From: Edaphochlamys debaryana
Taxonomy: Eukaryota > Chlorophyta > Chlorophyceae > Chlamydomonadales
Reading direction: 5' to 3'
Length of the DNA stretch: 64,000 nucleotides
Assembly (NCBI GenBank): GCA_016858145.1
Contig: JAEHOE010000075.1
Span: 372,001-436,000, forward strand
Shown: in pieces, positions 29,187-60,268 of the stretch
How the letters are laid out: each line of letters starts with the position of its first letter
Numbering within the stretch: the first letter of the stretch is position 1
Position numbers and translations under genes: made by a program
Notes under the pieces: model-generated
The model's database searches: none
What the model saw: only the letters and a program-made list of their open reading frames with translations
Told to the model about the DNA's origin: nothing

Positions 29187-30617
29187 CTATTGGGCAGCAG
29201 ACCCTGGGTCTTCCCCACCCTGGAGCAGCGCCACCAGCTCACTGCGGCCAGCGGCCTTGGCCATGTCGAGGGCGGTTGTGCCGTCCTGCAGCGGGCCCCG
29301 CGTCAGCGCGGTCGGGTCATGGCGAGCGCGTCGACGGTCAGGCCGTGCAGGCGAATACCCAGCCCCAGCCCATGTGCGTACCGGGGTCTGGGCCTCCTTG
29401 CTGGCCCCTGCCTCGAGGAGCATTCGCACTGCGGAGGCGTCGCCCTCCCTAGTGGCCAGATGGAGAGCCGTGAACCCCTGCACTTTTACGGAGGGCGGAT
29501 ACCGAGGTCAGGGTGTGTGTGTCTATCAAACTGCGCGCCTCGCACACTCCCAGAAATCTGCACCCACGCACCTCGTTGTCGCGCGCCTCAGTGTCTGGCT
29601 CGGCGTCCAGCAGGGCCTTGAGGACCTCCTTGCGGACATGGGACTTGCACGCCCAGAGGAAAGAGTTCCGTCCCCCCTGCGTGCACGCGAACCAAGGAGG
29701 ACGGCAGCTCAGGTGTGCCGATCATCTGATCCATAGACAAGGAAAGGGCCGATTGCAGCGTACGGTATATGGCTTTCCCCCTTGCTTCGCAGAGGGGCGC
29801 AGAGAGAGATGCGGAGCAGCACTCACGGCTTCAATGCAGGCTCCTGCTTCCAGGAGCGCCCTCACCACGCCCGCATTGCCACGAACGGTGGCCACATGCA
29901 GGGCCGTCATGCCCTGCGAGTGGGCGGAGTCCTGCGTGGACGGCAACGCGGGTACGTCCTTCAAGCCAGTTTAGGTTGCATAAAAGCATGCCAGGGCAGG
30001 CAACGCGGATACGTCAAGCCTCCTTCAAGCCAGCGGCAGGGGACGAGCACTGGGCACTGGGCTTCCCCTAGGCTTACCCGACATACGACTTCCGTGTTAG
30101 CCCCCGCCTGGAGCAGTGTCTTCACCACGTCTGTGCGGCCCATCGCAGCTGCCGCAAAGAGGGGGGTTTCTCCATCCTGAGGGGCGGGAAAGGGTTCAGG
30201 CAAGCGAGGCAAGGGGTCCACCGTCCACGCAAACCTCCGCAACCAGATCGGCCACGCCAAGTCCCAAGCCTGGTCCCAAGGCATCGCGCACCTCATCCAC
30301 AGCGTCAGGGTCGACGCCGGCAATAAGCAGCGCTCTCACGGTCTCCATGTCATGCTGGGGGACCGTACAAAGGTGAGGGGAGGGGAGGGGTCGCCGAGGA
30401 GCATGCTCTTGCGGCCCCCCGTCTTCCGCACCTCGGGGGTCTCCACTTCCACTCCCGGGCTCATTCTTGCGCGCATGCTCTCCATTCCTTCATTACATAA
30501 GCTGCTAGATGTGACCGCGAGGTGAAGGGCCGTCGTCCGATTGATGGCCAGGGCCCGAGGGTTAGCGTCAGGCTCGAAGAGGTTTAGTTCTGTCACACGT
30601 AGCCGCAGTACGTTCAT
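29187..30617 (-). CDS. Ankyrin-only protein, unit 1 (A1), about 241 aa
   Basis: Seven phase-0 exons: 30617-30432, 30354-30292, 30176-30087, 29913-29827, 29676-29572, 29477-29382, 29285-29187 (726 nt). The start ATG is at 30615-30617. Each exon carries about one ankyrin repeat: TTALHLAV, HDMETVRALLIAGVDPDAV, GETPLFAAAAMGRTDVVKTL, GMTALHVATVRGNAGVVRAL, SFLWACKSHVRKEVLKALLD, GFTALHLATREGDASAVRML, and a last half repeat GTTALDMAKAAGRSELVALL. Ankyrin repeats bind proteins; there is no other domain, signal or membrane segment. One exon per repeat with equal phase allows repeats to be gained or lost without frame damage. The first exon's donor could also lie earlier (after CTCGCG). It starts 119 bp from the divergent kinase gene at 30737. 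Confidence 0.75.
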
Positions 30618-30736
30618 TTTGCGTATGCAGAAGCAAAACAGAACAATGACAGAACAGGAATGAATGGGCTCCGCGCTTTGGCGCCCTAGCGTGCTAGGCA
30701 CTCTAAGTACTGAGTATACAAGTAAAGGTGCACAAC
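30618..30736. promoter_or_regulatory. Bidirectional promoter region of unit 1
   Basis: Only 119 bp separate the ATG of A1 (minus) from the ATG of the ankyrin-kinase gene (plus), so both promoters and 5' leaders must overlap. It is relatively A-rich for this genome near 30620-30660. Confidence 0.5.
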
Positions 30737-32012
30737 ATGGGGCAATCGGCGTCCGCTTTGCCGGACGTTGGCCCGTTGGTGCGGTGGATCAAGCAGCCCC
30801 ACTGCAACGAGCTGCCAGCTAGCCAACTGGTATGTACTTGGAACGTGCACCACGCTATCGGCGAAGGGCTCCGCCGATAACCGCCTGCCCCCGGCCTCCC
30901 ACCCCTTCCCACCCCCACCTGCACCCTCCTGCACCCCGCCAGCTTGAGCTTGAAGCCCTCTTCAAGGCCGACACCACAGGCCCTCAGCTCCTCCGCGCAT
31001 GCGCGTTTCACAATGGACGGTGGCTGGCGCAGTACATGGATAAGGATAGGGCCGCGGCACCTGATTCCCAAGGCCGCACCCTGCTGCATTGCGCAGCATA
31101 CGCAGATAACAGGCGGGCGGTGTCCACCCTACTGACGCGGCACAGAAAGCTGGTCAGCGCGAGGGACATAGACGGTCGGACGCCGCTGCACTTCGCTGCC
31201 TGGACGGGGGCTCAGGGTAAGTTGTCTCCGCCACCCCCCGGCTACTCAGGTCGTGGCTTGACGTGCTCCCTTCCTTGCCCCATGACCGCAGCCTCCGTGT
31301 ACCGGCTGCTCGAGGCAGGGGCGGAGCTCTGCCCGAAGGACCGAGATGGATTGTACGTGGCATGGGGAGGGTGCATAAGCTGTGGAAGGGTGTGTGATGA
31401 AGTCCTTGGCTTGGTTGGGGATTGGGAGCGGGGCAGCCGTTGAGCTCCTCACGCGCACTTTGCCACTGCACCCCTTCTCCCCTCAGGACTCCGCTGCACC
31501 TGGCGTGTGCCACGGGGGACGCTGGCATGGTGTCCCTCCTCCTGGCCATGGAGGGCCTCAGGAGCGGCGGTGCCCCACCCACCAGCCCCATGCTCCTCTG
31601 CAACCTGGGCTGGGCCCCGGCGCACATGGCAGCCTGCGCCGGCTCGGTAGGAGCATTGCGCGCCCTGCACGGGGCCCGGCCCGACTCCGTAAGCCTCGCG
31701 GCCGGTGCGGCGGCCGGTGACCAGTTCAGCGGTTACACACCGCTGCACTGTGCGGTGGCGTGCGGTTCAGCGGAGGCAGTTAACCTTCTGCTCGGCTGGA
31801 TCGAGTCCAATTGGCAGGGGGCCTTCCCAGTGGGCCTCTTCAAGCTTGCGACGAGCTGGGATGAGTGGGAGCGCGTGTGGCGACGGCGGCACGAGCTACC
31901 CCGCTTCATATCCGCCATCGGGCAAGCGGACCCCCTCGATGACCCGGCCGAAACGTTCACTACTTTCCGCCGAGTGAGCCAGGCTTTCAGGGATGGGCTC
32001 CGCCGCATGGGC
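30737..32012 (+). pseudogene. Ankyrin-kinase unit 1 (K1), 5' part, cut by an inversion
   Basis: Exons 30737-30829, 30943-31216, 31292-31352 and 31486 to about 32012 match exons 1-4 of the intact paralogues in length and phase. The product starts MGQSASALPD (a possible N-myristoylation start), then carries five ankyrin repeats, for example GRTLLHCAAYADNRRAVSTL, GRTPLHFAAWTGAQG, TPLHLACATGDAGMVSLLL and YTPLHCAVACGSAEAVNLLL, then the linker KLATSWDEWERVWRRRHELP. The exon reads normally up to DGLRRMG near 32010, where the paralogues continue LSVEAEVPGGP; here the sequence turns into the reverse complement of the kinase's last exon. As it stands this strand would give an ankyrin protein ending at a stop near 32087 without a kinase. 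Confidence 0.8.
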
Positions 32013-34172
32013 CCGCGGGCCTGCGGCTGGAGGCCAAAGAGCTGGGCCCAGCATGAGGGGAGGGAGGGACAGCGTGCGAGAGGGTAGGTGGGTCGAGGAC
32101 ACAGCTTCTAGTGGCTGGCCAGGAGGAAGAGCAAGACATGCGTCATCAGGCCATGAGACCCTCCTGCGGCACGCGCCGACAAACACGGCTCAGCCAACCT
32201 GCATGTTCCAGGGCTGCGAGTGGTCCGCCCGGACGAGCTCCGGCGTCAGCAGCTCGTAGATGCGGTGGTGTACGGTCGAGATGAGCTGGCAGAAGACGAC
32301 GCCCCAGGCGTACACATCGACCTGGGGGCGGGTCAGTTGAGGACAAACAGCCGTACTCATGCCACATCGGTTGCTGCCTTGCTAGTACTTGATTGCCGGC
32401 GAATGATCTCCGGCCCAGTGGGATGTCAGATGTACCAGATCCCACTGCTTACGGTATTGGTATAGGCGGGTTTTGCTCCCGGAATTGCCTGTAGCTCCGG
32501 GGCTAGCCACAGCGGGTTCCCGTTGCCCTGCACCGTGTTGAGCTCACCCCCAGGCGCCACGGCCCTGCTGATGCCAAAGTCCGTGATCTGAGGGGTGAAA
32601 GCGGGCAAAGGGTTGAGGGTTTTGGGGGCAATTACAGCAGGACCCCGGCAATCAGAGGCCCTGACCTCCGGAGTGTGCCGCAGCTCACCTTGACGTGGAG
32701 GTCCCGGGTGAGCAGGACATTATCTGGATGATGAGGAAGGGAACGGAGGTAAGACAGCGGGAGGGAGGGGCGGAAGCGTAACATGCAGGGCGCCGGGCCT
32801 TGCGTCCGACTGTTCTGAGCAAGGCTCCTGTGCCGAGTGCATAGCGTGCCTCATGTGTCTCACCCAGGGTCCTCTACCCACCTGCCTTTCCCCTCTATCC
32901 CTTCCTACAATCCTACCTTGGTGCTTCTAAGGGGCGTATCGGCGCGCCACATGGGCGTATGTCTGCCGTCACTGCGCTGCGCAGTCTTCCGGCCTTGCGC
33001 TGCTACCAACTGGAGTCTCTCGACCCCACTCGATTACACACGGACGCTAACGATTCCCCTTGCAAACAACCCGCAAAGTTGCTTGCCTGGCTTGACGTCG
33101 CGGTGCACCACCCCGTGTGAGTGCAGAAACAGCAGGCCCTGGGGGTGCCCCGGAGAGGGGACCGGCATGGGGGAGGGGGTCGAAGTATTCAGGTGCCGTT
33201 CCGCAGTCCGCCAGGCTCGAGCTTGGTCACAGCTCTCCGCCCCCTGGCTACCGCTCTTTCCCCTCCTGGAGTGGAAATGAGGGGTGAAGTGCGACAAGCA
33301 GACCGCCACCCAGCTCCTCCCGGACCCCCCCCCACCTCCGCCAGCTCGAGGGCAATCTCCAGCTTTTTGCCCAGGGTCAACTGCCCCCCGTGCTCCGATG
33401 ACCCACAGAACAGCCGGTGCAGGTCCAGGGGGTACCTGGACGGGCGGAGGCACGTGGCACGCGGCTGGGTGGAAAGCAGCAGAATGCCCTCAAAACCGGT
33501 GGTAAACACCACTAGTAGCTAACGATGGCCTTTGCCTGCCCCTCGCCTGCTGTTATGGGACGGAACGTTCTAGTGCGTTCCGGACCGCGGCGCTTCGTGC
33601 ACGTCGGGAATCTCCGCCCGCCCATGACCACGTCAGATAGAGCGTTGCCTATATGTCCGAAACTGTCGCCTTGGACTCCTCGCGGGATCACGCCCCGCCC
33701 GTGCTCAGCTCTCTACCGCCGCCCTATAAGACCTGCCCCTTGCCCCACCAGGCCATGACCAGCCACGGCTGCCGGGTGGAGGGGTCGGTGGTGATGCCGT
33801 ACAGGGGGGTGATGTGGTCGTGGGGCGGCAGGGAGCGCATGAAGGCAAACTCCCTCTGCAGGTCCTCGGGGCTACCGCTCGTCAGCCGCTTGAGGGCAAC
33901 CTGGGAGCCACGGGGCGGTGTTCAGGGGTCCGAAACCACCACGCATAGCTCCGTCCGCTCTGCACTGCTGCCCCCTGGCAACAGTACACGCGCCTGCGCG
34001 TACCGTTGTGTGGGAGTTGTAAGTAGCACGGTAGACCTCCCCAAACCCGCCCGCGGCCGCAGCACGCCCCACCACCCCCCCGGGTTTGTCCGTGATGGCG
34101 CTCCAGGGGACCTCGAAGCTCCACGCCCGGGGGCCCCCAGGCACCTCCGCCTCCATTGAGAGGCCCATGCGG
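32013..34172 (-). pseudogene. Inverted kinase-domain segment of K1
   Basis: All kinase exons of K1 lie here on the opposite strand: 34172-34004, 33900-33749, 33435-33336, 33138-33087, 32723-32689, 32587-32453, 32321-32199 and the start of the last exon from 32041. Internal lengths 152, 100, 52, 35 and 135 equal the intact copies (the next is 123 against 126). Motifs are intact: GGFGEVYRATY, VALKRL, VVHRDVKP, ITDFGISRAV, WLAPELQ, DVYAWGVVFCQL. The intron after HRDVKP has a GC donor. The segment has no start of its own and its last exon breaks after LFGLQPQARG at the left junction. Because all motifs are clean the inversion may be recent, or an assembly error. Confidence 0.8.
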
Positions 34173-34387
34173 AGCGCCCCAGCATGGCCCGGGTGGTGGA
34201 GCGGGCGCGGGCATTGCTGGAGCTGGTGGAGGACGGGTCGGTGGCGCCTGCTGCGGAGCAGCCGCCGCAGGCAGGAGGGCTGCTGCCGTTGGTCGTACCG
34301 CCGGCCCCGCCCGAGCTTGTACTGGGTGCTCCGCCACCGCCGCCTCCCCGGGCTCCCAACCCGTTCGAGATGGGAATGCACTCGTGA
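34173..34387 (+). pseudogene. K1 C-terminal fragment after the inversion
   Basis: Plus-strand coding resumes with RPSMARVVERARALLELVED and runs to APNPFEMGMHS and a stop at 34387, matching the tail of K2 and K3 (APNPFEMGMDS). About 50 codons that should come before RPSM in the last exon are absent from both junctions, so the rearrangement also deleted roughly 150 bp. Confidence 0.75.
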
Positions 34388-35154: not shown

Positions 35155-35253
35155 CTAGGGGCCCTGCAGGAGCTCCACCAGGTCTCTGCGGCCCGAGCCC
35201 AGGCCCAGCCAGCTCCGAGCGGACCGGTCCAGGTCCAGGGCGGTCTGGCCGTC
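35155..35253 (-). pseudogene. Orphan terminal exon of an ankyrin-only gene
   Basis: These 99 nt encode DGQTALDLDRSARSWLGLGS through LVELLQGP and a stop, with an acceptor AG just upstream. It is the same length as, and nearly identical to, the last exons of A3, A4 and A5, but differs from the true last exon of A2 at 36026-36142. None of the four preceding exons is present between 35254 and 36025, so it is the remnant of a lost A3-type copy, or an alternative last exon of A2. Confidence 0.7.
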
Positions 35254-36025
35254 CTGCTGCCGTGGGAGGGGCACGAGAGGAGGATGCAGGCAGGGGGTTC
35301 CGTGCGTCGATGCGTGCCAAGCCTGACAAGCAATGGACGGCACACTGCACGTCCATACGGTACTCAATCAGCCCCGCCCTGTATGTGGGATGTCGCAAGC
35401 GTGAGCACTGCCGGCGGGGGGCAGGGATGTAGGGGAGCCGTGGGAAGATAGGGGTGGGGCTAATTGCAGCACATTCCTGGGCCCGTCTTGGCGGACACAA
35501 GTCAAGTCACTCGCCTGCCTGCCTTTGGTGCCCTTCGCTGACATGGTTTCCGCCTACCCCCAGACCCCCTGGCCCCCATCGCCCCTACCAACTCAACACT
35601 GCGCCTGGGCTTCCCCAGCCCCGACCAAAACCTGCTCCAGGCCTACAAGTGCCGATCTTTGTCAACCGTTTCTCCTGTGCTATGCCACTCTACCTTCTGT
35701 TCGTCCGCTGCCGCTGCACCGCTCCATCCTGCCTAAGGGTCGGCCTTACACACGGCCCACAGGTGGCCGCACTGGGTGCCACGAGCGCTGCCCCGACAGC
35801 TTCCCACGGTCGAAGCAGTTCAGTCCCACCATACGCTGCCCGGCCCGGATCTACTCAAGCTGTCCCCATCATACACCTCCGTTCCTTTCCAGAGACATCG
35901 TAACCCGACAGCCTCCTGCTTGACTGCAGCTCTCGGACCCGCCATCCAGCGCCCTATGGGCCTGTAGCTGCCGCTCTGCATCCTGCTCTGGCCGTGGCCA
36001 GGGCCTGCCACTGCATGAAGCTGCG
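35254..36025. other. Gap between orphan exon and A2
   Basis: Scanned on both strands for the other ankyrin exons and found none. It holds short open frames only. Confidence 0.4.
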
Positions 36026-37386
36026 TCACCGGCTCCTCGACAGGTCGGGCAGGAAGCGAGGGGTCTCGGTCTCAGGCGCCAGCAGCTTCACCAGGTCCAT
36101 GCGGCCGGCAGCCACGGCGATGCGGAGGGCGGTCCTGCCGTCCTGCGCCGGGGGGACAGCGCGGAGGCAGTGCTGAAGGGCAAGCACGGAACGGATAGCC
36201 TGAGGTAAGTGGCCTGTGCGCGGCCCGGCCAGTTTCAGTACGCACCGGAGTCTCGGCTTCCGTGCTGGCCCCTGCCTTGAGGAGCTCCCTCACTGCCTTG
36301 ACGTCACCGGTGGTGGCAGCCAGGTGGAGCGCGGTGAGCCCCTATCAGGTTGGGAAGTTAAAGCGCCGTGAGGAGGGAGGGTTTGGTGCCGCCAAAGCGG
36401 AGCATGGGCATGTGAAAAGAATGCGTTCGCACAACGCCCGCCTCGCACCTCCGGGCTGCGTGCCTCAGGGTCTGCCCCAGCATCAAGCAGAGCCGTGACG
36501 ACCTTCCAGCTGCCGTACACTAGTGGGGTGCACCCATCCTGCTGCTGGCACGCGGGGAACGCAGAGCAGCGGGATTTGGGCCGAGCGCTTGCTGACCATG
36601 GTGACGCCAGGGGACGTACTTGCACAACCCTTTCACGCCCAGCCACTGCAGCGCCCTGCGCCTCGTCCGCGAACGTTGCGGAGTCAGGGCACAGCAGGCT
36701 CCCACTGCCTTGAGCGCCCTCACCACACTCGTGTGGCGACCCTTGATGGCCAGATGCAGTGGCGTGTAACCCTGCAGTGCGTGGAAGCAACTGAGTGTGC
36801 GCAGGCGGGCAGGGGCCAGGGGGACGCGGGCACGCGCCGTGAAGCCAGAGGCTACGGCCCATATACCATGTATGTCGCTTCGGCGTAGGCCCTGCCAAAG
36901 TCTTGCCACAGCTAAGCCCCCCTCCGGTACGGCTCCTGAGGCTCACCCGACAGGTGACATTGGCTTTTGCTCCTCCCTGGATCAGGGTTCTGACGAGTTC
37001 TGTGTCACCCAGGACAGCTGCTGCGAAGAGGGACGTCTCCCCGTCCTACGGGGAGGTCCAGGGCGAATAGCAACAGGGTGGGAGCAGGCTCTTAGGGTGG
37101 GTAACCCCCTCCTCACATCAGGGGTGCGGGAGCCGAGGCAGGCAGTGGGCCCAGTCGTGCTGGTGGTGCCCTAACACGCTGTTCGGGCTGTGACCCCGCG
37201 CCCCCCCACGCGCACCTTGCCTCGAGCGTCCTTGTCCACACCGGCAGCGAGAAGCGCTTTTACAGTCCCCACATTGTTGTCAAAGATCGCAAGCTCAAGA
37301 GCGGTGGGGCGGGATGGCAAAGCGCGAGGGCTTGCCTCGGGCTCGAAGCGGCTAACTGCTTCCAGGCGCTGTCGTAGTGTGTCCAT
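36026..37386 (-). CDS. Ankyrin-only protein, unit 2 (A2)
   Basis: Exons: 37386-37216, 37045-36947, about 36771-36660, 36538-36449, 36341-36246, 36142-36026. Five are in phase 0; the donor of the third exon is not settled. The ATG is at 37384-37386 (MDTLRQRLEAVSRFEPEASP, like the start of A3 and A5). Repeats: TALELAIFDNNVGTVKALL, GETSLFAAAVLGDTELVRTL, YTPLHLAIKGRHTSVVRAL, CTPLVYGSWKVVTALLDAG, LTALHLAATTGDVKAVREL, RTALRIAVAAGRMDLVKLL, then a tail ending DLSRSR. Two acceptors are TAG rather than CAG. The gene is divergent from K2, 148 bp between starts. Confidence 0.75.
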
Positions 37387-37534: not shown

Positions 37535-40500
37535 ATGGGGCAAAGCTTGTCTGCAGACAACAAGTCCGGACTTGTTGGCACGGACATCACCACGCTCCTG
37601 GACAGTATCAAGCAGCCGAGCGGCCGCGTGCATACTATCGACCGATTAGACGAAGGCAGAGACGTGGCGGAATGCCCGGCACCCACCGTGCGGGGAACTT
37701 CTTCCCCTTCCCAGCCCCAGCCCCCCGCGCCTCCCCCGCCCGGCAAGCACGTCGCGGAACTCGAAGCCGCCCTAAGCAATGACTCCAAGGGCCCCCAGCT
37801 GCTCCGCGCCGCCTCGCTCTATGATTCGTCATGGCTGCAGTACTTCCTCGATACGTACAAAGCAGGGAAGGCCAAGGCCGCAGTGCCAGACAAGCAAGGC
37901 CGCACGCTGATGCACTGCGCAGCCTACGCCGACAACCAGGAGGCGGTGTGCACGCTACTAAAGCACGACCGCGACCTGGTCAATGCGAGGGACAGAGACG
38001 ACTGGACGCCGCTCCACTACGCTGCTTGGATGGGGGCTCAGGGTGGGTGGGAGGGCGGGTGAGAGGGTGTGTGCCCACGCCCTCTGCCTTCTGCCAATGC
38101 GGGTCTGGGCCTGGGCCATGGCTTCCCGTCTCAACTCCGCTCACGCTTTGCTTGACTGGTGAACCTCGCCTCTGCAGGCTCTGCGTACCGGCTGCTGGAG
38201 GCTGGGGCAGAAGTCGGCGCGAAGGACAAGGATGGCTTGTGAGTGGCGTATGGAGGGGGCCTGAGCCGGGGGAGGCCGGTGCACTGCATTCGTGAGGGAG
38301 GCCCCACGCATGCTCACTGCCCGAGCGCCCGCAACCCCTAAGCTGCTCATCCGTCGCCTCCGCACCCCTTCTCCCTCAGGACTCCGCTGCACCTGGCGTG
38401 TGCCACCGGGGACGGTGGCATGGTGTCCCTCCTGCTGGCCATGGAGGGCCTCGGGAGCAGCCGCGGAGCGCCGCTCGCCTCTCCCATGCTCCTCTGCAAC
38501 CTGGGCTGGGCCCCGGCCCACCTGGCGGCCTGCAGCGGCTCGGCAGCCGCTCTGAGGGCCCTGCACCGGGCCCGACCTGAGTGCATCAGCCTAGCGGCCG
38601 GTGCGGCGGCCGGCAAGCAGTTCAGCAGCTGCACACCGCTGCACTGTGCGGTGGCGTGCGGCGAGGCCGAGGCAGTAGCTTTGCTGCTGGAAGCGCTCCA
38701 GCCCGACCGGCTCGAGGCGGTTCCAGAGGGGCTCACGAAGCTTGCGACGAGCTGGGATAAGTGGCAGAGCGCATGGCAGCGGCGGAACAAGCTCCCTCGC
38801 TTCGTTGCCGTCGTGGACCCTTTCCATGATGAGGACCCGCTCGACGACCCTGGGGAGGCATCCCATGCCTTTGAACGAGTGTCCCAGGCCTTTAGGGAGG
38901 GTCTCAGTCGCATGGGTGTCTCTGTGGAGGCAGAGGCGCCGAGGGTTCCCCGGGCGTGGACTTTCGAGGTCCCGTGGAGCCTCATCAGCTACAAGTCTGG
39001 CGAGGCGATGGGGCGTGCTGCGGCGGGCGGTTTTGGAGAGGTCCACCGTGCCACCTACAACTCTTGCACGTCGGTAAGTTTGTTTGCAGTTGCTTCACAC
39101 ACGGCGGCGGGCGGGGGATGCAGGGATGGCACGAGTGGTCAGGGCTTCGCAGCTTCGACGCAGTTCCCAATCGCTGTGAAGAGCCTCAGCTTGCATTGAA
39201 CGCCGCCCCGTCCCATGCACCCTTGCAGGTGGCCCTCAAGCGGCTCAAAAGCGGCAGCCCCGAGGACCTGCAGCGGGAGTTTGCCTTCATGCGCTCGCTC
39301 CCGCCCCACGACCACATCACCCCCCTGTACGGCATCACCATCGACCCCTCCACCCGGCAGCCGTGGCTGGTCATGGCCTGGTGGGTGCATAGGGGCGGGG
39401 GCTGGGAGTAGAGAGCGTCCGCCTCACCCTCCGCCACGGCCTGAGCGGGCAGTTGGGCACGGTTTGTTGGGGCTTCGTGACCGATACGGGTACCAGCACT
39501 GGGCGGAATGCTTGCCTTGAGTGCGCAGGTCATGTCAACTCCTTTCCTCCGCCCCTCCAGGTACCCCCTGGACCTGCACCGGCTGTTCAGCGGTCCGGCG
39601 GGGCACGGGGGGCAGCCGCTGCTGAGCCTGGGCAAGAAGCTGGACATTGCCCTGGAGCTGGCGGAGGTGAGGAAAGGTCGGGGAGGGGCCAGGGGGCGAA
39701 GAGCGGTAAACCCCTCCTGCCCAACCCCCCATGCCTGTCCCCTTTTACGCTCCCCACCTCCAGGGCCTGCTGTTCCTTCACTCACATGGGGTGGTGCACC
39801 GGGACGTCAAGCCAGGCAAGCGGGCTGGAGGGGTAGCGGATCGGCTGATGGGCTTAGCGCTGCAGTCAGCTACAAGGTTTGAAATTGCGGTTGTAAGTTG
39901 CAAGGGCGGCGGTTGAAATCGTGTGCACTCTCCCACCTTCCTTTCTCCCGCCGTCCTGCCTTCACCAGACAACGTCCTGCTCACACGGGATCTCCGCGTC
40001 AAGGTGCGGAGGCTCGAGTGAGGGCAGGGCCGTTGCATGCCCGTGTCCGGGCTCTCGCCCTGAGCCGTAAACCCTCTCTCCGCTCTCACCCCTCAGATCA
40101 CGGACTTCGGGATAAGCCGGGCGGTGGCACCCGGTGGCGAGATTGACTCAGTACAGGGCAACGGGAACCCGCTGTGGCTTGCCCCGGAGGTTCAGGCGTT
40201 CCAGGGGACCAAGCCTGCCTACACCAATGCGGTGAGCAAGGGTGCTCTGTCAGCTCTGACGAACAGGCTCCGGGAGGCGCAGGGACCGCTTTGTCTATGA
40301 GCGGCGGGTTACCAAACCCTAGTCGACTTCGGCTATGAGACTTGATGCCCAGACAAGAAGCGGTGCTGCCCCAATTGCGACCCACATTCCAGGTCGACGT
40401 GTACGCCTGGGGTGTCATCTTCTGCCAGCTCATCTCCACACTGCACCACCGCATCTACCAGCTCCTGGCGCCGGAGCTCATCCGGATGGGGGAGGGAAGG

Positions 40501-41099
40501 CCGCCGTGGCACCAGCAGGTGGGTTACGCCCCGTGTGCCGTGCCGGCACTTGCCGTTGATTGCAGCCCGACCCACATGCCGTGTCGCCTCCCGTCTCACG
40601 GCCTAATGAGTGTGATGACGCAAGTCTACTTGCTTTGCTTTCTGGCCCCTTTGCGCTTTGCCCTTGACCCCCCTGCCCTCTTGCCCGCTTTCCGCCATGT
40701 GCCACCCCCTTGCCGGTACCCGCCGCGCAGCTGCTCGGCCTCCAACTGTCGGCCCCGGAGTCCCTGCGGCAGCTGCCTGCCTTCCTCCTGGACAGGCTTC
40801 CGCTCCACCTGGAGCCCATGGCCCCCGCCCTGAGGGATGCGGCACTAGGGCTGGCGCGGGACTGCCTCCGCCTGGAGCCGGGGGAGCGCCCCAGCATGGC
40901 CAAAGTGGTGGAGCGGGCGCGGGCGCTGGTTGAGTCCGTGGAGGACGGGCCGGCGGCGCCTGCTGCTGAGCAGCCGCAGGCAGCAGGGCTGCTGCCACCG
41001 GCCGTACCCCTGGCCCCGCCACAGCTGCCGGTAGGAGCTCCACCGCCGCTACCGCCTCCTCGGGCTCCCAACCCGTTCGAGATGGGGATGGACTCGTGA
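37535..41099 (+). CDS. Ankyrin-repeat protein kinase, unit 2 (K2), about 705 aa, intact
   Basis: Eleven exons in phase (2118 nt): 37535-37627, 37748-38042, 38178-38238, 38380-39073, 39229-39380, 39561-39666, 39764-39815, 39969-40003, 40097-40231, 40393-40518, 40731-41099. The protein starts MGQSLSAD, a possible N-myristoylation signal. Five ankyrin repeats span about residues 40-260, then a linker (KLATSWDKWQSAWQRRNKLP), then a kinase domain from about 360. Glycine loop GGFGEV, ATP-binding Lys in VALK (near 385), catalytic HRDVKPDN (Asp near 481), DFG near 499-501, and APE in WLAPEVQ are all present, so an active Ser/Thr kinase of the tyrosine-kinase-like type is likely. The C-terminus is Pro-rich and ends PNPFEMGMDS. 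The intron after HRDVKP uses a GC donor. Substrate unknown. Confidence 0.9.
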
Positions 41100-43266: not shown

Positions 43267-43375
43267 GCGTGGAGCACTGCGCTGAATGCCTATGTGGGCT
43301 GGCACTGACTCCTATAGGCGAGGCAGGGTGCGGGCCCAAAGGGCGTGGGCCCGGCGCGATTGGACCAGACCAACC

Positions 43376-43582
43376 GCACAGCCGCGGCGACCTACCGCGC
43401 AACATTCCGCCCCTCCCTGGAGCGGAAACCGGAAATCGCGGAAACAGCACGCCGCAGCCCCAGACCACTTGCAAACGTTAGCCCTATGCTGTAGCTGTAG
43501 CCTAGAGTCGCTCAATTTGCAATAACTTCGCCGCGACGCACCCCGACTCTCGCCCGCGACCATTGCGACCGGAACGCAGCCA
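43376..43582 (+). repeat. Left terminal inverted repeat
   Basis: Pairs with 44881-45086. Positions 43455-43582 match the reverse complement of 44881-45008 at all 128 bases; the outer 79 bases are diverged and contain small gaps. Confidence 0.85.
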
Positions 43583-44851: not shown

Positions 44852-44880
44852 GCGGCGTGAGGAACGCGAGAAGGGGCTTG

Positions 44881-45086
44881 TGGCTGCGTTCCGGTCGCAA
44901 TGGTCGCGGGCGAGAGTCGGGGTGCGTCGCGGCGAAGTTATTGCAAATTGAGCGACTCTAGGCTACAGCTACAGCATAGGGCTAACGTTTGCAAGTGGTC
45001 TGGGGCTGTAGGGTGCTGTTTCCGCGATGTCCGGGTCCGCTCCAGGGAGGGGTGCTTTGCGCGGCCGTAGGTCGCGGAAACTGTGC
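44881..45086 (-). repeat. Right terminal inverted repeat
   Basis: Reverse complement of the left repeat; its outer end is CTGTGC at 45081-45086, matching GCACAG at 43376-43381. Confidence 0.85.
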
Positions 45087-48200: not shown

Positions 48201-48820
48201 CGCCGGAGCTCATCAGTCTGGAGGAGGGCAGGCCGCCGTGGCACCAGCAGGTGGGTGGCGGATCCCGTCATGGGTCGCCGGACCTAACAGGGCTTTGGCG
48301 GGGGCTGGAGTGCATTGCAAGGAATGCCCGCCTCGGTCTCTGCCTTAAAGCTGCTGGAGCCTTTATGCACCCCTTGCTCTTCATCGTCGACTTCACAATC
48401 ACCTCCGCCGCTGTCCGCCCCCCATTGCCCCTTCTCCCAACCGCCCAGCTGTACGGTCGCCAGCTCGCGGACCCGGAGGCCCTGCGGCAGCTGCCCGCCC
48501 TCCTCGTGGACAAGCTCCCGCCCCACCTGGAGCCCATGCCCCCCGCCCTGAGCGAGGCGGCGCTGGCGCTGGCGCGGGACTGCCTCCGCCTGGACCCCAC
48601 GCAGCGGCCGAGCATGGGGGAGGTGGTGGAGCGGGCGCGGGCACTGGTCGAGTCCATGGCGGACGGGCCGGCGGCGCCTGCTGCTGAGCAGCCGTTGCAG
48701 GCAGGAGGTCTGCTGCCACCGGCCGTACCGCTGGCCCCACCACAGCTGCCGGTAGGAGCTCCGCCGCCGCTACCGCCTCCCCGGGCTCCCAACCCGTTCG
48801 AGATGGAGATGGACTCGTGA
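45299..48820 (+). CDS. Ankyrin-repeat protein kinase, unit 3 (K3), about 716 aa
   Basis: Eleven exons in phase (2151 nt): 45299-45403, 45510-45837, 45935-45995, 46100-46784, 46962-47113, 47301-47400, 47526-47577, 47683-47717, 47816-47950, 48125-48250, 48449-48820. The first exon (MWQALFGQPAGDITSLLEAI) differs from K1 and K2 and lacks the myristoylation-type start. Ankyrin repeats: GRRLLHWAAFTDNSGTVAEL, GRTPLHYAAWSGAQG, TPLHLACATGDAGMVSLLL, WAPAHMAACAGSVGAL, YTPLHCAVACGEAEAVDLLL. Kinase motifs intact: GGFGEVYRATY, VALKRL (Lys near 397), HRDVKPDN (Asp near 491), VTDFGIS, WLAPEVQ. The intron after HRDVKP has a normal GT donor, unlike its paralogues. Much of exon 4 onward is almost identical to K1, so gene conversion between them is plausible. 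A TGTAA occurs at 49368, a possible polyadenylation signal. Confidence 0.9.
46825..46937 (+). repeat. 40-bp direct duplication in intron 4 of K3
   Basis: The 40 bases 46825-46864 recur exactly at 46898-46937. Part of the same sequence occurs once in the matching intron of K1 (minus strand, about 33900-33990), so the duplication happened in K3. Confidence 0.85.
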
Positions 48821-49637: not shown

Positions 49638-50816
49638 CTAGGGGCCCTGCAGGAGCTCCACCAGATCTCTGCGGCCCCAGCCCAGGCCCAGGCAGCTCCG
49701 AGCGGACCCGGCCAGGTCCAGGGCGGTCTGGCCGTCCTGTTGGGAGGGGCGCCAGGGGAGGATGCAGTCAGGAGGTTGGCTGCAAGCGCGGCCTGCTTTT
49801 GCCCCGCTAGACAGACAGCTGGGGGCCGGGGGAGTGGTGACATGCGGTGGGCCAGGACGCCGCACATGGACAGCACACCGCAGACCACGCCCATGGATCT
49901 AGGGGCATCTTGCAGCACGGCAACATGACAGCGGCGCCGTCCCCGACAGGCAGGCCATGCATGTGCGCTCGAAGCCATCCCCCACCCCTCGCCTGCGCAC
50001 GCACCGGCGTCCGGGCTTCCCGGCGGGCTCCCGCTGCCAGGAGCGCCCTCACCGCACCCGCATGGCCGCCCCGGGTGGCCAGGTGCAGGGGCGTGTGGCC
50101 CTGCGGGTGCGGGGAGGCGGATGGGCATGGCGCAGGCGGGCCGGGGCGGGCCGACGAAGGCCGGCACATTCCCTCTCCCGAGCGCTACGGACAGGGACGA
50201 TGCATTCGCTGCGTTGTCCTCGCTTCGCTCGCGCCTCAAGCAGCGCCACCGCTCCCCCCGGACCCACCCGACAGGTCGCCTCTGTGTTGGCCCCCGCTTC
50301 GAGCAGGGCTTTCACAACACCTGTGTGGCCCGACTCGGCCGCTACACAGAGGGGAGTCTCCCCATCCTGCGGGATAGAAGAGGGCGGAGACGGAGAGCAG
50401 CGTAGGCAGCAGGCGGAGTGGGAGACCAGGCGGGTCCAGGCCTCGAGTGCCCCAAGCCCGAGGCAGCGCGGCGCCCGCGGCAACCAGAGCTGCTATGGCC
50501 CTCGCGTCATTCCTCCTTGCCGCGAGGTGCAGGGGCGTCAAAAGCGGCGGCTGCTGGGGGCAAGGGGCGGACGTGAGGGGCGCCTGAGTTGGGCACGAGG
50601 GGACCCCCCTGGAGCCCTTCGCAAGCTTCCAGCACGCCGGAACAGCAAGTGTGGCTTGAAAAGTCGTCCCGGCCGAGCCCAGCGCGAGCTCCCAACACGT
50701 GTGGCTTTCCAAGTCTTTGCCTGCGTCCCTGTTGCACGGCTCTGCTGTCCGGCCGCGCGGGCATGCCTCGGGCTCCACCAGGTGGAGCTCGGTCAGCCAC
50801 TCCCGCAGTGCTACAT
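49638..50816 (-). pseudogene. Ankyrin-only gene, unit 4 (A4), probably broken
   Basis: Exons 3-5 (50366-50268, 50100-50005, 49736-49638) are clean and match A5 almost base for base. Two lesions lie upstream. At the start, the ATG at 50814-50816 is followed directly by TAG; compared with A3 and A5 a base is missing, putting the conserved reading (VALREWLTELHLVEPEACPR) out of frame with it, and no other in-frame ATG lies upstream. In exon 2 the end of the repeat and its donor site are deleted: after VAALVAAG... the sequence jumps into what is intron in A5. A translated product is unlikely unless another start is used. Confidence 0.75.
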
Positions 50817-51063: not shown

Positions 51064-53878
51064 ATGGCCTTTCCCTGTCCCTCGCGGTATTCTCCTGCGT
51101 CCACAACACCTAGTGTGAACTATTGGCTGGTAGGGTATGCAGCAAGCCAAATCATCAAGTGGGGAGTAGACTTGTTCAGGGAGAGGCTCCTCATGGGGAA
51201 GTCTGTGCAAAAGGAGGTGCCCTGGAGCGCCATCACCGACAAACCCGGAGCGATGACGGAGCGGCCTCCTGCGGCGGGCGGGTTCGGAGAGGTCTACCAA
51301 GCCACGTACAACTCTCACACCCCGGTGCGTGTCCTGCACGGCACTCGTGTGCGCACGGAGCTCTGCGTGGTAGCCGTACGTTCCCCCTGGCCCGCAGGTG
51401 GCCCTGAAGCGGCTCACGAACGGTTGCCCCGAGGACCTCCGGAGGGAGTTTGCCTTCATGCGCTCGCTGCCGCCCCACGACCACATCACCGCCCTGTACG
51501 GCATCACCACCGACCCCTCCACCCGGCAGCAGTGGCTGGTCATGGCCTGGTGAGCGCACGCGTGGGGTGGGGGCTGGGAGTAGAGAGCAGAGAGCAGCGC
51601 CTTCCTCCTCACAGCTTCAGGGTTTGGGGACACGGACAGATGGGAGCGCGTGGGGGTGACTTGGGCGGACTGCTCGCAGCGAGTGCGCAGGCGCTGCTCC
51701 TTCTAGTGCTCCTACCCGCCCAGGTCACTTTACTCCTTGCTTGCCTCCGCCCGTCCAGGTACCCCCTGGACCTGCACCGGCTGTTCATGAGGCCGGCGGA
51801 GCACGGGGGGCCGCTGAGCCTGGGCAAGAAACTGGAGATCGCTGTGGAGCTGGCGGAGATGGGTGGGATTAGGCATGGGTCGGACAGGGGTGGCTGCCCG
51901 AAGGCAGGAAAAGGCCAAGCCCCGTGGTGCCCCCCAGGGTTCAATGTCCAGGGAAACGAGAACGCTCGGGGGGCCATGTAGAGCCAAAGTGCCGTACGAG
52001 CAGCATGGGTCGGGATCCCCAAACCACACGAAAACCCCGCGATAGTGGCCTCCACATCTTCAGTATTGGCATTGAGGCGGCCGTGTAAGATGCTTTCCTT
52101 CTTGGTGGTGCCCGCGTCGGCGTCGTCTTGCGGGGCACAGCACCTTCAGGCTCCCTGTCGGCTGTGGTCAGCACGCTGGCCCCGCCTTCTTGCCGACGCG
52201 CTGCTCATCAGACTCCTAGCCCAGCTCCTTCTGGGCGACGCGGTAGGCCTCGCCTGGCCTGCGTCCCGCACGGCCATATACTCGACCGGGCGCGACCGGC
52301 GCTGGCGTGGGTCCAGTGCGGAGAGCTATGGCAATGCCGCCGCTGTCGCGGCCCGGGGCGGCCGAGGCGTAGCCCAGGAAGGGCGCGGCCGCGAGCACCG
52401 CGGCGAAAAGCCACCAACAGGCGCACGGCGCCTGGCGGTGCAGGCTTGTTGCCCGCTCCGTGTAGTTGTAGTTGTGCCTACGAGCAACGCCCTTCAGCCG
52501 CAACGCTCTTCCACGGACCCCGCCCTCCGCCCCCACCTCCGGCCCCAACCCTGCTCCCATACCGTCTGCCCACCCGCGGCACGGACATAACACCAATCTC
52601 AACTCTAACCCCTCCGCCCCTCTTCTTTTTCCCCCGTCTCTCTCAGGGCCTGCGGTTCCTGCACTCACAGGGGATGGTGCACCGCGACGTGAAGGCAGGC
52701 GAGATTGGCGGGGATGGGCTGATGGGCTTGGGATAACGGATGGGCGGGAGTTGGCCTGCGTGAAGCCTGGGTTTGGCTAATGGTACAGGCCATGTGCAAG
52801 GACACGCCTTTCAACCCGCCGCTGCATGCCTGTGCCTGCCTCCAATGTCCCAGATAACGTGCTACTCACCAGCGACTTCCACGTCAGGGTGGGCGTGGGC
52901 AGAGCGAGCATGCATTGATTCGCTCGGATTGCCAGCTCTCTTCTGATGTATGCCAACATGGCCTTTACATGCAGATTACTGACTTCGGTCTGAGTAGGGT
53001 GGTGGCGCTGGGCGGCGTGGTCAACACCGTTGGGGGACTGGGGCACGTGCTATGGCTGGCCCTGGAGCTGCAGGCGTTTCGGGGGACCAAACCCGCTTAC
53101 ACCAATTCGGTGAGCGACTGGCGCTAGCAGCTCGGTTTCACTGGGACCGGTGCCCTTGCTCTGTCGTTATCAACTCCAGAGGGACATGGTGCTCCGGGAG
53201 GCGCAGGGACCACTATGCGCGGCAGGCTGCTCACATATCTTTCAGATACGGCCTGGGACCGGGGCTGGGAGCACTCGCTGCATAGCAGGAACGTTTCGGC
53301 CCTTGTTCAGCCTCGGTGAAAAGCTGTGCCTGGGGTCCACAGGTGGACGTGTACGGCTGGGGCGTCATCTTCTGCCAGCTCATTTCGACCCTGCACCACC
53401 GCATCTACAAGATCCTGGCGCCGGAGCTCATCACGCCGGGGGAGGGCGACGACTGGGAAACGTGGCACGAGCAGGTTAGTGCGGTGGCTGGTCCAACGGC
53501 TGTTGCCGGACCGGACAGGGCTGTATGTGGTGGGGGCTGGAGTGCATCGCGACGAGTCCCCGCCCGGGAGCCTTCATGCGCCCCTCGCTCTTCCTCCTTG
53601 ACCCAACTGTCCCTCCGCCGCTGTCCGCCCCCCCTCGTGCCACACCCGCCTCTCAGCTGAACCATCGCCAGCTCGCGGACCCGGAGTCCCTGTGGCAGCT
53701 GCCCGCCCTCCTCCTGGAAAGGCTGCCGGACCACCTGGAGCCCATGCCTCCCGCCCTGAGCGAGGCGGCACTGGGGCTGGCGGGGGACTGCCTCAGCCTG
53801 GAGCCGGGGGAACGGCCGGGCATGGGGGAGGTGGTGCGGCGGGCGCGGGCGCTGCTGAGGGAGACCGCTGGGGGCTAG
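51064..53878 (+). pseudogene. Kinase of unit 4 (K4), no ankyrin part, several lesions
   Basis: Exons: 51064-51324, 51398-51549, 51759-51858, 52647-52698, 52854-52888, 52975-53109, 53343-53474, 53657-53878. All ankyrin exons are gone: the first exon runs from an unrelated segment (NYWLVGYAASQIIKWGVDLF) straight into VPWSAITDKPG. After the third exon the expected donor GT is AT (51859-51860), and the following intron is swollen to 788 bp. The catalytic loop is HRDVKADN (Pro lost) and APE is ALE (WLALELQ), while VALK, ITDFG and the C-lobe remain. A TAG at 53876 ends the frame where K5 goes on with a Pro-rich tail; the tail is still readable beyond. Either a pseudogene or a strongly altered soluble kinase. 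Confidence 0.7.
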
Positions 53879-55651: not shown

Positions 55652-56768
55652 CTAGGGGCCCTGCAGGAGCTCCACCAGGTCTCTGCGGCCCGAGCCCAGG
55701 CCCAGCCGACTTCGAGCGGACCGGGCCAGGTCCAGGGCAGTCTGGCCGTCCTGCGGGGAGGGGCGCCAGGGTAGGATGCAGTCAGGGTGTTACATTCGCG
55801 GCTTGCTTTTGCCCCGCTAGGCAGACAGCTGTGGGCCGGGGGAGTGGTGACACGCGGTGGGACAGCACACCGCAGACCACGCCCGTGGATCTAGGGGCAT
55901 CTTGCAGCACGGCAGCATCACAGCGGCGCCGTCCCCGACAGGAAGGCCATGCATGTGCGCTCGAAGCCATCCCCCCCCCTCGTCCGGGCACGCACCGGCG
56001 TCCGGGCTTCCCGGCGGGCTCCCGCTGCCAGGAGCGCCCTCACCGCACCCGCATGGCCGCCCCGGGTGGCCAGGTGCAGGGGCGTGTGGCCCTGCGGGTG
56101 CGGGGAGGCGGTTGGCGCAGGCGGGCCGGGGCGGGCAGACGAAGGCCGGCACATTCCCTCTCCCGAGCGCTACGGACAGGGACGATGCATTCGCTGCGTT
56201 GTCCTCGCTTCGCTCGCGCCTCAAGCAGCGCCACCGCTCCCCCCGGACCCACCCGACAGGTCGCCTCTGTGTTGGCCCCCGCTTCGAGCAGGGCTTTCAC
56301 AACACCTGTGTGGCCCGACTCGGCCGCTACACAGAGGGGAGTCTCCCCATCCTGCGGGATAGAAGAGGGCGGAGACGGAGAGCAGCGTAGGCAGCAGGCG
56401 GAGTGGGAGACCAGGCGGGTCCAGGCCTCGAGTGCCCCAAGCCCGGGACAGCGCACCTCTCCTGGGACATCCTTGTCCGCGCCCGCTGCAACCAGCGCTG
56501 CTACGGACTTCGCGTCATTCCTCCTGGCCGCGAGGTGCAGGGGCGTCGAAAGCGGCGGCTGATGGGGGCAAGGGGCGGACGTGAGGGGCGCCTGAGTTGG
56601 ACACGCGGTCCCCTGGAGCCCTTCGCAAGCTTCCAGCACGCCGGAACAGCAAGTGTGGCTTGAAAAGTCGTTGCAGCTGCATACCTGCTCTGCCGTCCGG
56701 CCTCGCGGACATGCCTCGGGCTCCACCAGGCCGTTGAGCTCTGTCAGCCGCTCGCGCAGAGCCAACAT
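55652..56768 (-). CDS. Ankyrin-only protein, unit 5 (A5), 159 aa
   Basis: Five phase-0 exons: 56768-56685, 56558-56457, 56351-56253, 56091-55996, 55750-55652 (480 nt), the same lengths as A3. ATG at 56766-56768; start MLALRERLTELNGLVEPEAC. Repeats: STPLHLAARRNDAKSVAALV, GETPLCVAAESGHTGVVKAL, HTPLHLATRGGHAGAVRALL, and the last exon ending LVELLQGP. It is nearly identical to A4 from exon 3 on, including the introns, so the pair is a recent duplicate, with A5 the working copy. Divergent from K5. Confidence 0.85.
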
Positions 56769-56934: not shown

Positions 56935-59900
56935 ATGCAAGCATTCAAGGAAGGCTTCAAAGAAGGCTTAGGGGCTGTCGGCGACATCACCTCCCTACTG
57001 GAAGCAGTCAAGCGAGGCGACACGTGCTTCAAGCAGCACCTGCGCCCGGGCCAGGTAGAAGCCATTCATGTTCTGGCAATCGGAGATGGACCAAGAAGCC
57101 AGAGGCCCCTCAGTCCCACACACGCCCGTCCACCCCCTGGCTTCCCCCCTGGCCCCCTGCCCCTCAGAGCCTGAAAGAGGTCCTGGAAGACGACGATGCG
57201 GGCGCCCAGCTGTTCCGGGCTGCCGCTTGCTACAACCCCAAAGCGTTCTTTGAGTTTCTCGGCCTTCATCGAGGACTATTCGCTGGGTGGAACAGCAGTC
57301 TCATGCTGTTCACCGCTGCAAATGCGAAGGATGAGCGGGGCCGCCGGCTCTTGCATTGGGCAGCGTTCGCGGACAACAGTCAGGTGGTGGCGGAGATCCT
57401 TAATGAGGCTGACAGTGGTGACAAGGACAAGGAGGGCCGCACGCCGCTGCACTACGCAGCCTGGTCGGGAGGGCAGGGTAAGTGGTGGTGCAGCTGTGAG
57501 CAGTATCGCGCCGTCCCCAAGCCCTGTGGCTGTGCCTTCACGCCCTCGATCGTGCATGTTCTTAGTCGCCTGATGCCTCTGCTTTCCCCTCAGGCTCGGC
57601 CTACCTATTGATAGCTGATGGTGCGAAAGTGGCCGCCAAAGACCACGACGGCATGTGCGTTGCGCGCCTAAGATTCATGGTTCCAACGTGCATGGTGGGG
57701 GACGCGGTTTAAGTGTCCACAACACGCTACCCTGCCTCTGCACCCCTCCTACCCCCAGGACTCCGCTGCACCTGGCGTGTGCCACGGGGGACGCTGGCAT
57801 GGTGTCCCTCCTCCTGGCCATGGAGGGGCGCCGCAGCAGCCTCGGGGCACCGCCCGCCTCCCCCATGCACCTCAGCAAACTGGGCTGGGCCCCGGCCCAC
57901 CTGGCGGCCTGCAGCGGCTCGGCGGCAGCCCTGGGGACCCTGCGCCGGGCCCGACCTGAGTGCATCAGCCTGGCGGCCGGTGCGGCGGCCGGCAAGCAGT
58001 TCAGCGGGTACACACCCCTCCACTGCGCGGTGGCGTGCGGCGCAGCTGAGGTGGTGACCCTGCTGCTGGGCTGCGTAGACTCAAAACAAATCACGTTCGA
58101 CCTCATCAAGCTTGCGACAAGCTGGGACGAGTGGGACCGCGTGTGGAAGCAGCGGGCCCAGCTGCCGCGCTTTGTCACCGCCGTCGGGAGGACGGACCCC
58201 CTCGATGACAAGGACGCAGCTTATAACGCCTTCAATACCGTGCGCCAGGCGTTCAAGGAGGGCCTCCGCCGCATGGGCCTGTCTGTAGAACTGGAGGTGC
58301 CCGGGGGCCCCCCGGCGTGGAGCTTCGAGGAGGTGCCCTGGAGCGCCATCACGGACAAACCCGGAGCAATGACGGGGCGGCCTGCGACGGCGGGCGGGTT
58401 TGGCGAGGTGCACCGTGCTACCTACAACTCCTGCACCGCGGTATGTGCATGTAACTCTCAGGTCCCTCTCGAGGCCCCGCTGGCCATACACACCCTGACC
58501 ACACCCTGACCCGCAGGTGGCCCTGAAGCGGGTCACCGTCGGTAGCCCCGAGGACCTCCGGAGGGAGTTCACCCTTATGCGCTCCCTCCCGCCCCACGAC
58601 CACATCACCCCCCTGTACGGCATCACCACCGACCCCTCCACCCGGCAGTCATGGCTGGTCATGGCCTGGTGAGCGCACGCGTGGGGTGGGGTTCCGGAGC
58701 AGAGAGCGTCCGCCTCACCCTCCGCCACGGCCTGAGTGGGCAGTGTGGCACAGTTTGTGCGGGCTCCGTGACGGATACGGGTACCGGCACTGGGCGGAAT
58801 GCTTGCCTTGAGTGCGCAGGTCATGTCACTCGTTGCCTCCACAACGCAGGTACCCCCTGGACCTGCACCGGCTGTTTAGCGCGCCGATGGAGCACGGGGG
58901 GCAGCTGGGCCTAAGCAAGAAGCTGGAGATCGCTGTGGAGCTGGCGGAGGTGGGGGGTGGGGAGGGGCCAGGGGGCGAAGAGTGTAAACCCCTTCTGCCT
59001 AACCCTCACGCCTGTCCCCTCCTCCGGCCTCCACCCCCAGGGCCTGCTGTTCCTGCACTCACACGGGGTGGTGCACCGGGACGTCAAGCCAGGCAAGCGG
59101 GCTGAAAGGGCAGCGGGGCAAGATGACTGTTGTGCAGTGCTGCCGCCCACAAGCTGAAGACCTCCGTTGTAAGCATATCCCCTCCCCCTCCCTGCCTTCC
59201 CCAGACAATGTCCTGCTGAGCCGGGACCTCCGCGTCAAGGTGCGCACGATGACACGGGGCCAGCGGGCCCCAGCCTGCCATAGCTCTCCCCCCTGAACCC
59301 TGAACCCTTTCCCCGCTCTCACCCCTCAGATCACGGACTTTGGGATCAGCAAGACCGTGGCGCCTGGGGGCGAGCTAAACACAGCGCAGGGCAACAGGAA
59401 CCCGCTGTGGCTCGCCCCGGAGCTGCAGGCCTTTTGGGATTCCAAACCCTCCTACACCAATGCGGTGAGCAAGGATGTGAAACCAAGGGTGCTCCGGGAG
59501 GCGCTGGGGCCGCTACAGCTATGAGCTACCCACCTGCAGGTCGACGTGTACGCCTGGGGTGTCATCTTCTGCCAGCTCACCTCCACCCTGCACCACCGCA
59601 TCTACGAACTGCTGATGCCAGAGCTCATCCGGATGGGGGAGGGCAGGCCGCCGTGGCACCAGCAGGTGGGTGGCGGATCCCATATGGCCTGGAGTCACCG
59701 TCTCCATCCGCGCTTCAGGAGCTGTTGGAGCTCGTTGGCCTTCCTCCTCGCCCGCTGTCCGCCCCTCCTTGCAGCCTGACCCACATGCCGTGTCGCCTCC
59801 CGTCTCACGGCCTAATGAGTGTGATGACGCATGTCCTCTTGCTTTGCCTTTTGGCCCCCTTGCGCTTTGCCCTTGACCCCCCTGCCCTCTTGCCCGCTTT

Positions 59901-60268
59901 CCGCCATGTGCCACCCCCTTGCCGGTACCCGCGCGCAGCTGCTCGGCCTCCAACTGTCGGCCCCGGAGTCCCTGCGGCAGCTGCCCGCCCTCCTCGTGGA
60001 CAAGCTCCCGCCCCACCTGGAGCCCATGCCCCCCGCCCTGAGGGAGGCGGCACTGGGGCTGGCGAGGGACTGCCTCAGCCTGGACCCCACGCAGCGGCCG
60101 AGCATGGCCCAAGTGGTGGAGCGGGCGCGGGCGCTGCTGAGGGAGGTCGCTGCGAGCCGGCTGGCAGCCCCTGCAGAGCAGCCGCCGGCAACAGCGGCGG
60201 CGCCCGGCCTTCCTCTACTTCCGCCACCGCCACCGCCGCCATTGGCTCGCAGCCCGTTCGAGGGTTGA
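56935..60268 (+). CDS. Ankyrin-repeat protein kinase, unit 5 (K5), about 700 aa, intact
   Basis: Eleven exons in phase (2103 nt): 56935-57054, 57168-57477, 57594-57654, 57759-58440, 58517-58668, 58850-58949, 59041-59092, 59205-59239, 59330-59464, 59540-59665, 59939-60268. It starts MQAFKEGFKEGLGAVGDITS. Ankyrin repeats: GRRLLHWAAFADNSQVVAEI, GRTPLHYAAWSGGQG, TPLHLACATGDAGMVSLLL, WAPAHLAACSGSAAAL, YTPLHCAVACGAAEVVTLLL. Kinase motifs are complete: GGFGEVHRATY, VALKRV (Lys near 395), HRDVKPDN (Asp near 489), ITDFGISK, WLAPELQ. The intron after HRDVKP has a GC donor. The C-terminus ends LARSPFEG, shorter than K2 and K3. In the last intron a block is shared almost exactly with K2 (40600-40720 and 59790-59930), suggesting gene conversion. 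Confidence 0.9.

Follow-up and report, generated by a model that had tools for sequence, protein, structure and literature searches.

A tandem array of head-to-head ankyrin and ankyrin-kinase genes in Edaphochlamys debaryana, with partial decay and a partnership that probably predates the array

The window analysed here is a 64,000-nucleotide stretch of the 142-Mb genome of the green alga Edaphochlamys debaryana (contig C75, positions 372001-436000), in which positions 29187-60268 are occupied by a series of paired genes, one encoding an ankyrin-only protein (A, minus strand) and the other an ankyrin-kinase (K, plus strand), the units being numbered 1-5 along the window. Gene models were obtained for the ten array genes via spliced alignment, with K1 modelled in pieces, and these models bear out the layout put forward in the original prediction, i.e. 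five head-to-head A/K units all pointing in the same direction. The predicted start-to-start distances were likewise recovered, the ATG-to-ATG gaps of units 1-5 being 119, 148, about 320 (after removal of an inserted element), 247 and 166 bp. The units are spaced 6.0-7.5 kb apart and are clear paralogues, beyond chance, and no A- or K-like match was found in the 10 kb flanking the window on either side (tblastn, E 0.01). The inserted element (43376-45086, 1711 bp, no strand assigned) is located between A3 and K3 and has inverted ends of about 205 nt, with arms that are 75% identical over 43376-43426/45036-45086 and 97% identical over 43429-43582/44881-45034. Shared promoter motifs were considered and rejected, as units 4 and 5 shared a single 16-bp match in a short-word comparison, whose other words of 9-18 bases were near chance.

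Apparently intact copies of both genes are found only in units 2, 3 and 5 (three of five). The corresponding kinase genes are K2 (37535-41099, plus strand; HYH03_012276), K3 (45299-48820, plus strand; HYH03_012278, 716 aa) and K5 (56935-60268, plus strand; HYH03_012280), of which K3 and K5 belong to type II as defined by the divergence data below. Their models contain 11 coding exons each, six of which have the same length in each of these genes; the spliced alignments of K2 and K3 stopped short at exon 1, and among the public models that of K2 is short at the 5' end and that of K5 is without the first exons. The encoded proteins follow a common order of a short N-terminus, two ankyrin-repeat blocks, a linker and a kinase (VALK, HRD, DFG, APE), and Pfam found a protein kinase domain preceded by ankyrin repeats in K3 as well as in K7, a relative on another contig. 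The VAxK lysine, HRD, DFG and APE are read in K2, K3 and K5, in columns invariant across eight aligned proteins, and from these catalytic residues all three are predicted to be active kinases. Among the best 60 solved-structure matches the kinase chains were predominantly those of HCK and LCK, plus a single B-raf and a single MAP kinase chain, in line with a putative TKL-type kinase. Protein-kinase orthogroups are listed among the most expanded in E. debaryana in the passages covered of the genome paper (Craig et al., PMC8226300), which also names Chlamydomonas sphaeroides as the sister of this species.

The remaining two kinase genes are broken. The ankyrin half of K1 (30737-32087, plus strand; type I, start MGQSAS) is followed by a kinase core, running from the last part of exon 4 through exon 10, that is inverted (32199-34180, minus strand), as seen from spliced alignment to K3 (228/276 identical, with one spurious last exon counted in), while the C-terminal tail (34175-34387) is again on the plus strand; the halves are not in one reading frame. 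The public model of this locus, HYH03_012274, is a 280-aa ankyrin protein without a kinase, in agreement with the split. The inverted core still displays a dN/dS of 0.19-0.36, and the inversion is therefore probably recent. K4 (51064-53878, plus strand) is a kinase-only remnant, the alignment of which begins at K5 residue 354 and thus contains no ankyrin exons. Its exon-6 donor is AT rather than GT, APE has become ALE, an early stop is present, and the intron before the HRD exon (51860-52646) measures about 0.8 kb versus the usual 0.1 kb. The public model, HYH03_012279 (303 aa), is likewise kinase only and skips the HRD exon after this long intron. The public K1 and K4 models apparently stem from the same assembly and are hence not independent of assembly error.

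On the opposite strand, A1 (29187-30617, minus) is a type I gene of seven coding exons, all phase 0, encoding 216 aa with ankyrin repeats recognised by Pfam, and is apparently intact. A2 (36026-37386, minus), also of type I, has six coding exons and encodes about 218 aa; the end of its exon 3 is uncertain, the donor being GC in one model and GT in the other. A3 (42170-43266, minus) and A5 (55652-56768, minus; Pfam ankyrin) are intact type II genes of five exons and 159 aa, with identical exon lengths (84/102/99/96/96 nt), all phase 0, and about one ankyrin repeat per exon after exon 1. A4 (49638-50816, minus) is broken: the sole ATG upstream does not share the reading frame and runs straight into a stop (ATG TAG), and exons 1 and 2 have both lost their donors. 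Downstream of A2, a stray type II last exon (35155-35256, minus) reads like that of A3 and A5, also matches other array copies, and is listed as a relic. With K1 inverted in its core, K4 devoid of ankyrin exons and A4 broken, the proposal of five pairs of an ankyrin-only and an ankyrin-kinase gene does not hold. The conservation of exon lengths and phases that had been claimed between copies survives within types (A3 equals A5) and fails over all five, where A1 has seven exons and A2 six, against five in type II.

Pairwise dN/dS and dS were derived from Nei-Gojobori counts, with p values from the Fisher test. For the A genes dN/dS was 0.27-0.44 over ten pairs and 0.29-0.44 among A1, A2, A3 and A5 (A3-A5 0.30, p 8e-5; A1-A2 0.44, p 9e-7; A1-A5 0.30). 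The K genes gave 0.19-0.54 across all regions and pairs, and 0.27-0.50 in exons 1-3. Both A and K are under purifying selection and evolve as coding genes, with A constrained about as strongly as K, and the dN/dS check on the ankyrin parts suggested earlier thus returned purifying values in A and in K exons 1-3, with no positive selection in the pairwise, whole-region comparison. These values bear on the notion that the A genes are relics of ankyrin exons left beside K promoters rather than genes. The dead A4, the uncertain exon 3 end in A2 and the stray exon at 35155-35256 are as expected of relics, as is the apparent absence of A3-A5 (by numbering and by the A3 search described below) from an RNA-seq-guided annotation. 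However, four open spliced frames (A1, A2, A3 and A5) with phase-0 exons and constrained dN/dS make this explanation very unlikely.

The dS values reveal that A and K exons 1-3 sort into two old types, I and II. In K exons 1-3, dS was 0.75 for K1-K2 and 0.44 for K3-K5 versus 1.31-2.00 across types; in A it was 0.85 for A1-A2 and 0.22 for A3-A5 versus 0.91-1.24 across types, so that A1 and A2 are only slightly closer to each other than cross-type pairs are. This division fades further downstream, where dS across types drops to 0.32-0.63 in exon 4 plus linker and 0.27-0.44 in the kinase (within types 0.38-0.51 and 0.28-0.50, respectively). In the N-terminal part K1 sides with K2, whereas its exon 4 groups with that of K3. 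Two intron stretches of K2 and K5 are near identical (39404-39529 vs 58703-58820, 109/118 or 92%; 40565-40730 vs 59774-59938, 158/165 or 96%), a sign of putative recent gene conversion across types. Judged from this mosaic of dS, the kinase half is homogenised or exchanged across types, as by recombination, and A and the K N-terminus therefore travel together as one block. Linkage by itself suffices for such joint travel, which does not prove a function.

This pattern is also what would be expected if A and K were functionally unrelated hitch-hikers, a compact divergent block being copied by unequal crossing-over and the pairing persisting because the block is short. We regard this as a serious possibility, albeit one below an even chance. 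The short unit spacing agrees with it, as do the homogenised kinase halves and introns, which show that recombination is active, and the decay of two units. Moreover, with a median intergenic distance of 555 bp in the E. debaryana genome, given in the part of the genome paper drawn on (PMC8226300), close neighbours are common. The original prediction took the keeping of the pair through five duplications as a hint that the partners work together; that argument is not supported, since two of the five units hold a broken kinase gene, one of them together with a broken A, and tandem copying of a 6-7.5 kb block would maintain the pair even in the absence of selection. Conversely, the constraint on A, about equal to that on K, and the neighbours of two K relatives outside the array speak against mere hitch-hiking.

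Genome searches with the K5 and K7 proteins, in which only the best candidates were scored, returned six ankyrin-kinase loci outside the array: K7 (C151, 228 kb; HYH03_016824), K8 (C151, 262 kb; start MGQGAS), K6 (C151, 289 kb; HYH03_016834, start MGQCVS), the apparently truncated K9 (C63, 329 kb) and two distant ankyrin-kinases on C53, one of which is HYH03_010173. K7 is far diverged, sharing 36-55% identity with the K proteins of the array depending on region, and has a divergent partner, A7 (C151:222501-232500, about 3700-4988, minus strand), whose ATG lies 398 bp upstream of the K7 ATG. Exon 1 of A7 is 84 nt long, encodes MSLQAMRARLTALTGLEPE... and gave Smith-Waterman scores of 46, 37, 39 and 42 against A5, A3, A1 and A2, respectively. 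A sample of 1200 control peptides, drawn from 2693, contained none that scored as high, the top control reaching 34; the likeness was seen by eye before this control, and the test is thus after the fact. Because the diverged K7, on another contig, has a divergent gene carrying an A exon 1, the A/K partnership is probably older than the array. Past exon 1, A7 comprises one ankyrin-like repeat and four repeats of about 55 aa (LQPGED...LN...G.PL.VPG), weak relatives of which occur at C151:221183 and 224958. Pfam gave no match for these repeats, listing one unrelated family below cut-off even at E 10, and a by-eye impression of LysM was dropped on that result.

The composition of A7 also bears on a decoy role, raised in the original prediction, in which A would mimic the K ankyrin surface and capture a target or effector, like the integrated decoys of paired plant immune receptors. 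In its favour is the head-to-head arrangement around a brief common intergenic region, which recalls paired NLR genes (PMC9528088, passages covered), along with the tandem birth and death and the fact that the N-terminal ankyrin part is the K region most divergent across types. Still, A and K ankyrin domains matched at 38-65 bits, compared with 49-81 bits for other ankyrin-like loci (best four per query, n = 17 loci), and A as a copy of the K ankyrin domain was rejected, the match being no better than the best of those 17 loci. In its usual form a decoy is thus disfavoured, and as neither A nor K exons 1-3 show positive selection in pairwise dN/dS, and A7 has a different body in place of most of the ankyrin stack, we consider this explanation very unlikely. 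As a separate observation, C4:1505001-1514500 is rich in ankyrin exons of one repeat each, several of them 99 nt long, that are very like those of A, and may be a possible source of the A ankyrin body; the searches with K5 and K7 gave no K relative on that contig among the candidates scored.

A feature new to this analysis, and absent from the original prediction, is the start of several K proteins. K1, K2, K6 and K8 begin with MGQSAS, MGQSLS, MGQCVS and MGQGAS, respectively, and K3, K5 and K7 have no MGQxxS start. The motif was found in 5 of 4605 open ATG-initiated 20-mers of the fetched DNA, four of them being these very starts, which support the K start codons and, with these, the small ATG-to-ATG distances in units 1 and 2. 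An N-myristoylation signature has the form MGxxxS at the protein start, and K1, K2, K6 and K8 are accordingly predicted to be probably lipid-anchored. The fifth occurrence, MGQPSS (position 6676, plus strand, of C75:45001-55000), is in a 60-codon open frame. A kinase-only relative follows on the same strand, its first matched kinase exon lying about 670 bp further on, and the motif may mark the start of that gene. In the model of this gene HRD reads HRN and DFG reads GFG.

In combination, these data are best explained, with about an even chance in our estimate, by an old and probably co-transcribed two-gene signalling unit residing in a birth-and-death tandem array. The unit would consist of a small ankyrin-repeat gene and an ankyrin-TKL-type kinase gene sharing one short intergenic promoter region, and joint transcription would cause the A protein to be made in step with the kinase. 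Several K proteins (K1, K2, K6 and K8) would be membrane-anchored through MGQxxS, and A may contact or act on K via its conserved first-exon helix rather than a fixed ankyrin surface, regulating a kinase of the K2, K3 or K5 type or serving as its adaptor. The earlier suggestion that the partners work together is thereby retained in part, on the grounds that the K7 pair probably predates the array and that both genes are under purifying selection. A stronger version, which we find unlikely, is that of a dedicated two-component sensing pair, in which the output of a lipid-anchored ankyrin-kinase would be held by its co-transcribed partner via the exon-1 helix and the rest would be exchangeable, amounting to a modular paired receptor without NLRs. 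The partner body does differ, being an ankyrin stack in array A and another repeat domain in A7.

Several observations weigh against such a signalling unit. Within the array, two of the five units carry a broken kinase gene (K1, K4), unit 4 also a broken A4, and the 1711-bp element splits the partners of the otherwise intact unit 3. The E. debaryana annotation is RNA-seq-guided (PMC8226300, part covered), and A3, A4 and A5 are probably unannotated, since the K3, K4 and K5 models are numbered consecutively (HYH03_012278, 012279, 012280) and a search with the A3 protein (0.55-1.75 times its length) gave no E. debaryana protein in the best 120 of 334 matches; HYH03_012275 and HYH03_012277 were absent among the public proteins matched to window genes. 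Outside the array, A7 is no longer ankyrin-only, most of its repeats not being shared with A. K6 too has an ankyrin neighbour, the 166-aa ankyrin-only gene A6 with five phase-0 exons, 237 bp from K6. A6 resembles the A proteins of the array no more than it does unrelated ankyrin proteins, however; its exon 1 gave a control fraction of 0.008 against one array A and 0.23-0.65 against the other three. As seven other loci (six distinct places) outscore its best array match, A6 was rejected as a sequence-proven A relative.

No A-like neighbour was found at the loci examined for K8, K9 and the two C53 ankyrin-kinases, which agrees with hitch-hiking. A candidate A gene beside K9 was discarded, its aligner scores of 68 and 70 coming from simple repeats and control pieces reaching 85 and 79. 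The original prediction had named absence of the pairing in relatives as damaging; the six loci give a divided answer, with one A exon-1 relative, one ankyrin neighbour of unproven descent and four without either. Nor was an adjoining ankyrin gene present at the seven kinase-only relatives examined (two on C30, three on C77, one on C75 at 52 kb and one at 9316-10960 of the window). The last of these (minus strand) is about 70% identical over its last part, contains a TAA within one matched stretch and lacks ankyrin repeats in its surroundings. With the array taken as a single locus, a divergent partner thus occurs at 3/7 ankyrin-kinase loci versus 0/7 kinase-only loci, a difference that is not significant (one-sided Fisher p about 0.10, or about 0.23 without A6).

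With respect to known proteins, a K5 search in which the 8000 best-sharing candidates were scored gave eight E. debaryana proteins above 350 bits, the next protein reaching 195 bits, while a profile search brought in K4, the K1 half and, at 28-34% identity, ankyrin-kinases of volvocine algae. Within the protein data searched, the array is, by sequence, specific to E. debaryana. The volvocine proteins (HYH03_010173, Pleodorina PLESTM_000123800, Volvox reticuliferus Vretifemale_2750, Gonium GPECTOR_1g459 and one from Tetrabaena) share the ankyrin plus kinase composition (E 7e-64 to 1e-37; Tetrabaena 2e-26) but differ in their low identity to K and their length of 1359-1722 aa, and no A-like gene lies upstream at the HYH03_010173 locus or its C53 neighbour. 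INK4 kinase inhibitors, small proteins with roughly four ankyrin repeats that are linked to a kinase, resemble A by analogy only.

Plant integrin-linked kinases (ILKs) are single proteins that carry both ankyrin repeats and a kinase, and have roles in stress and immunity (PMC5376563, passages covered). K resembles them in layout and is at most a putative member of this Raf-like subfamily, and those passages mention no divergent ankyrin-only partner, MGQxxS start or tandem array. Paired NLRs (RGA4/RGA5, RPS4/RRS1) resemble A/K in that two genes diverge from a common intergenic region; however, A and K have no NB-ARC or LRR and are unlike each other, whereas NLR partners are homologous receptors, and the ATG-to-ATG distance is 119-398 bp here (unit 3 excluded) compared with intergenic stretches of several hundred to several thousand bp in NLR pairs (PMC9528088, in the sections covered). 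Pfam returned ankyrin plus kinase, or ankyrin only, on the scanned proteins, and no NLR domains with an integrated decoy. Literature searches gave no description of a divergent ankyrin-only/ankyrin-kinase pair among the entries listed, and neither plant ILKs nor paired NLRs have this combination in the passages covered (PMC5376563, PMC9528088). Counts of tandem 'pairs' made on raw sequence should be checked for members that are broken, and with A apparently missing from public annotation part of a signalling family is possibly unseen. If the proposed unit is real, the array would offer a compact test case, in a cultured alga, of a kinase and a small partner that are linked, co-diverge and exchange parts outside the NLRs.

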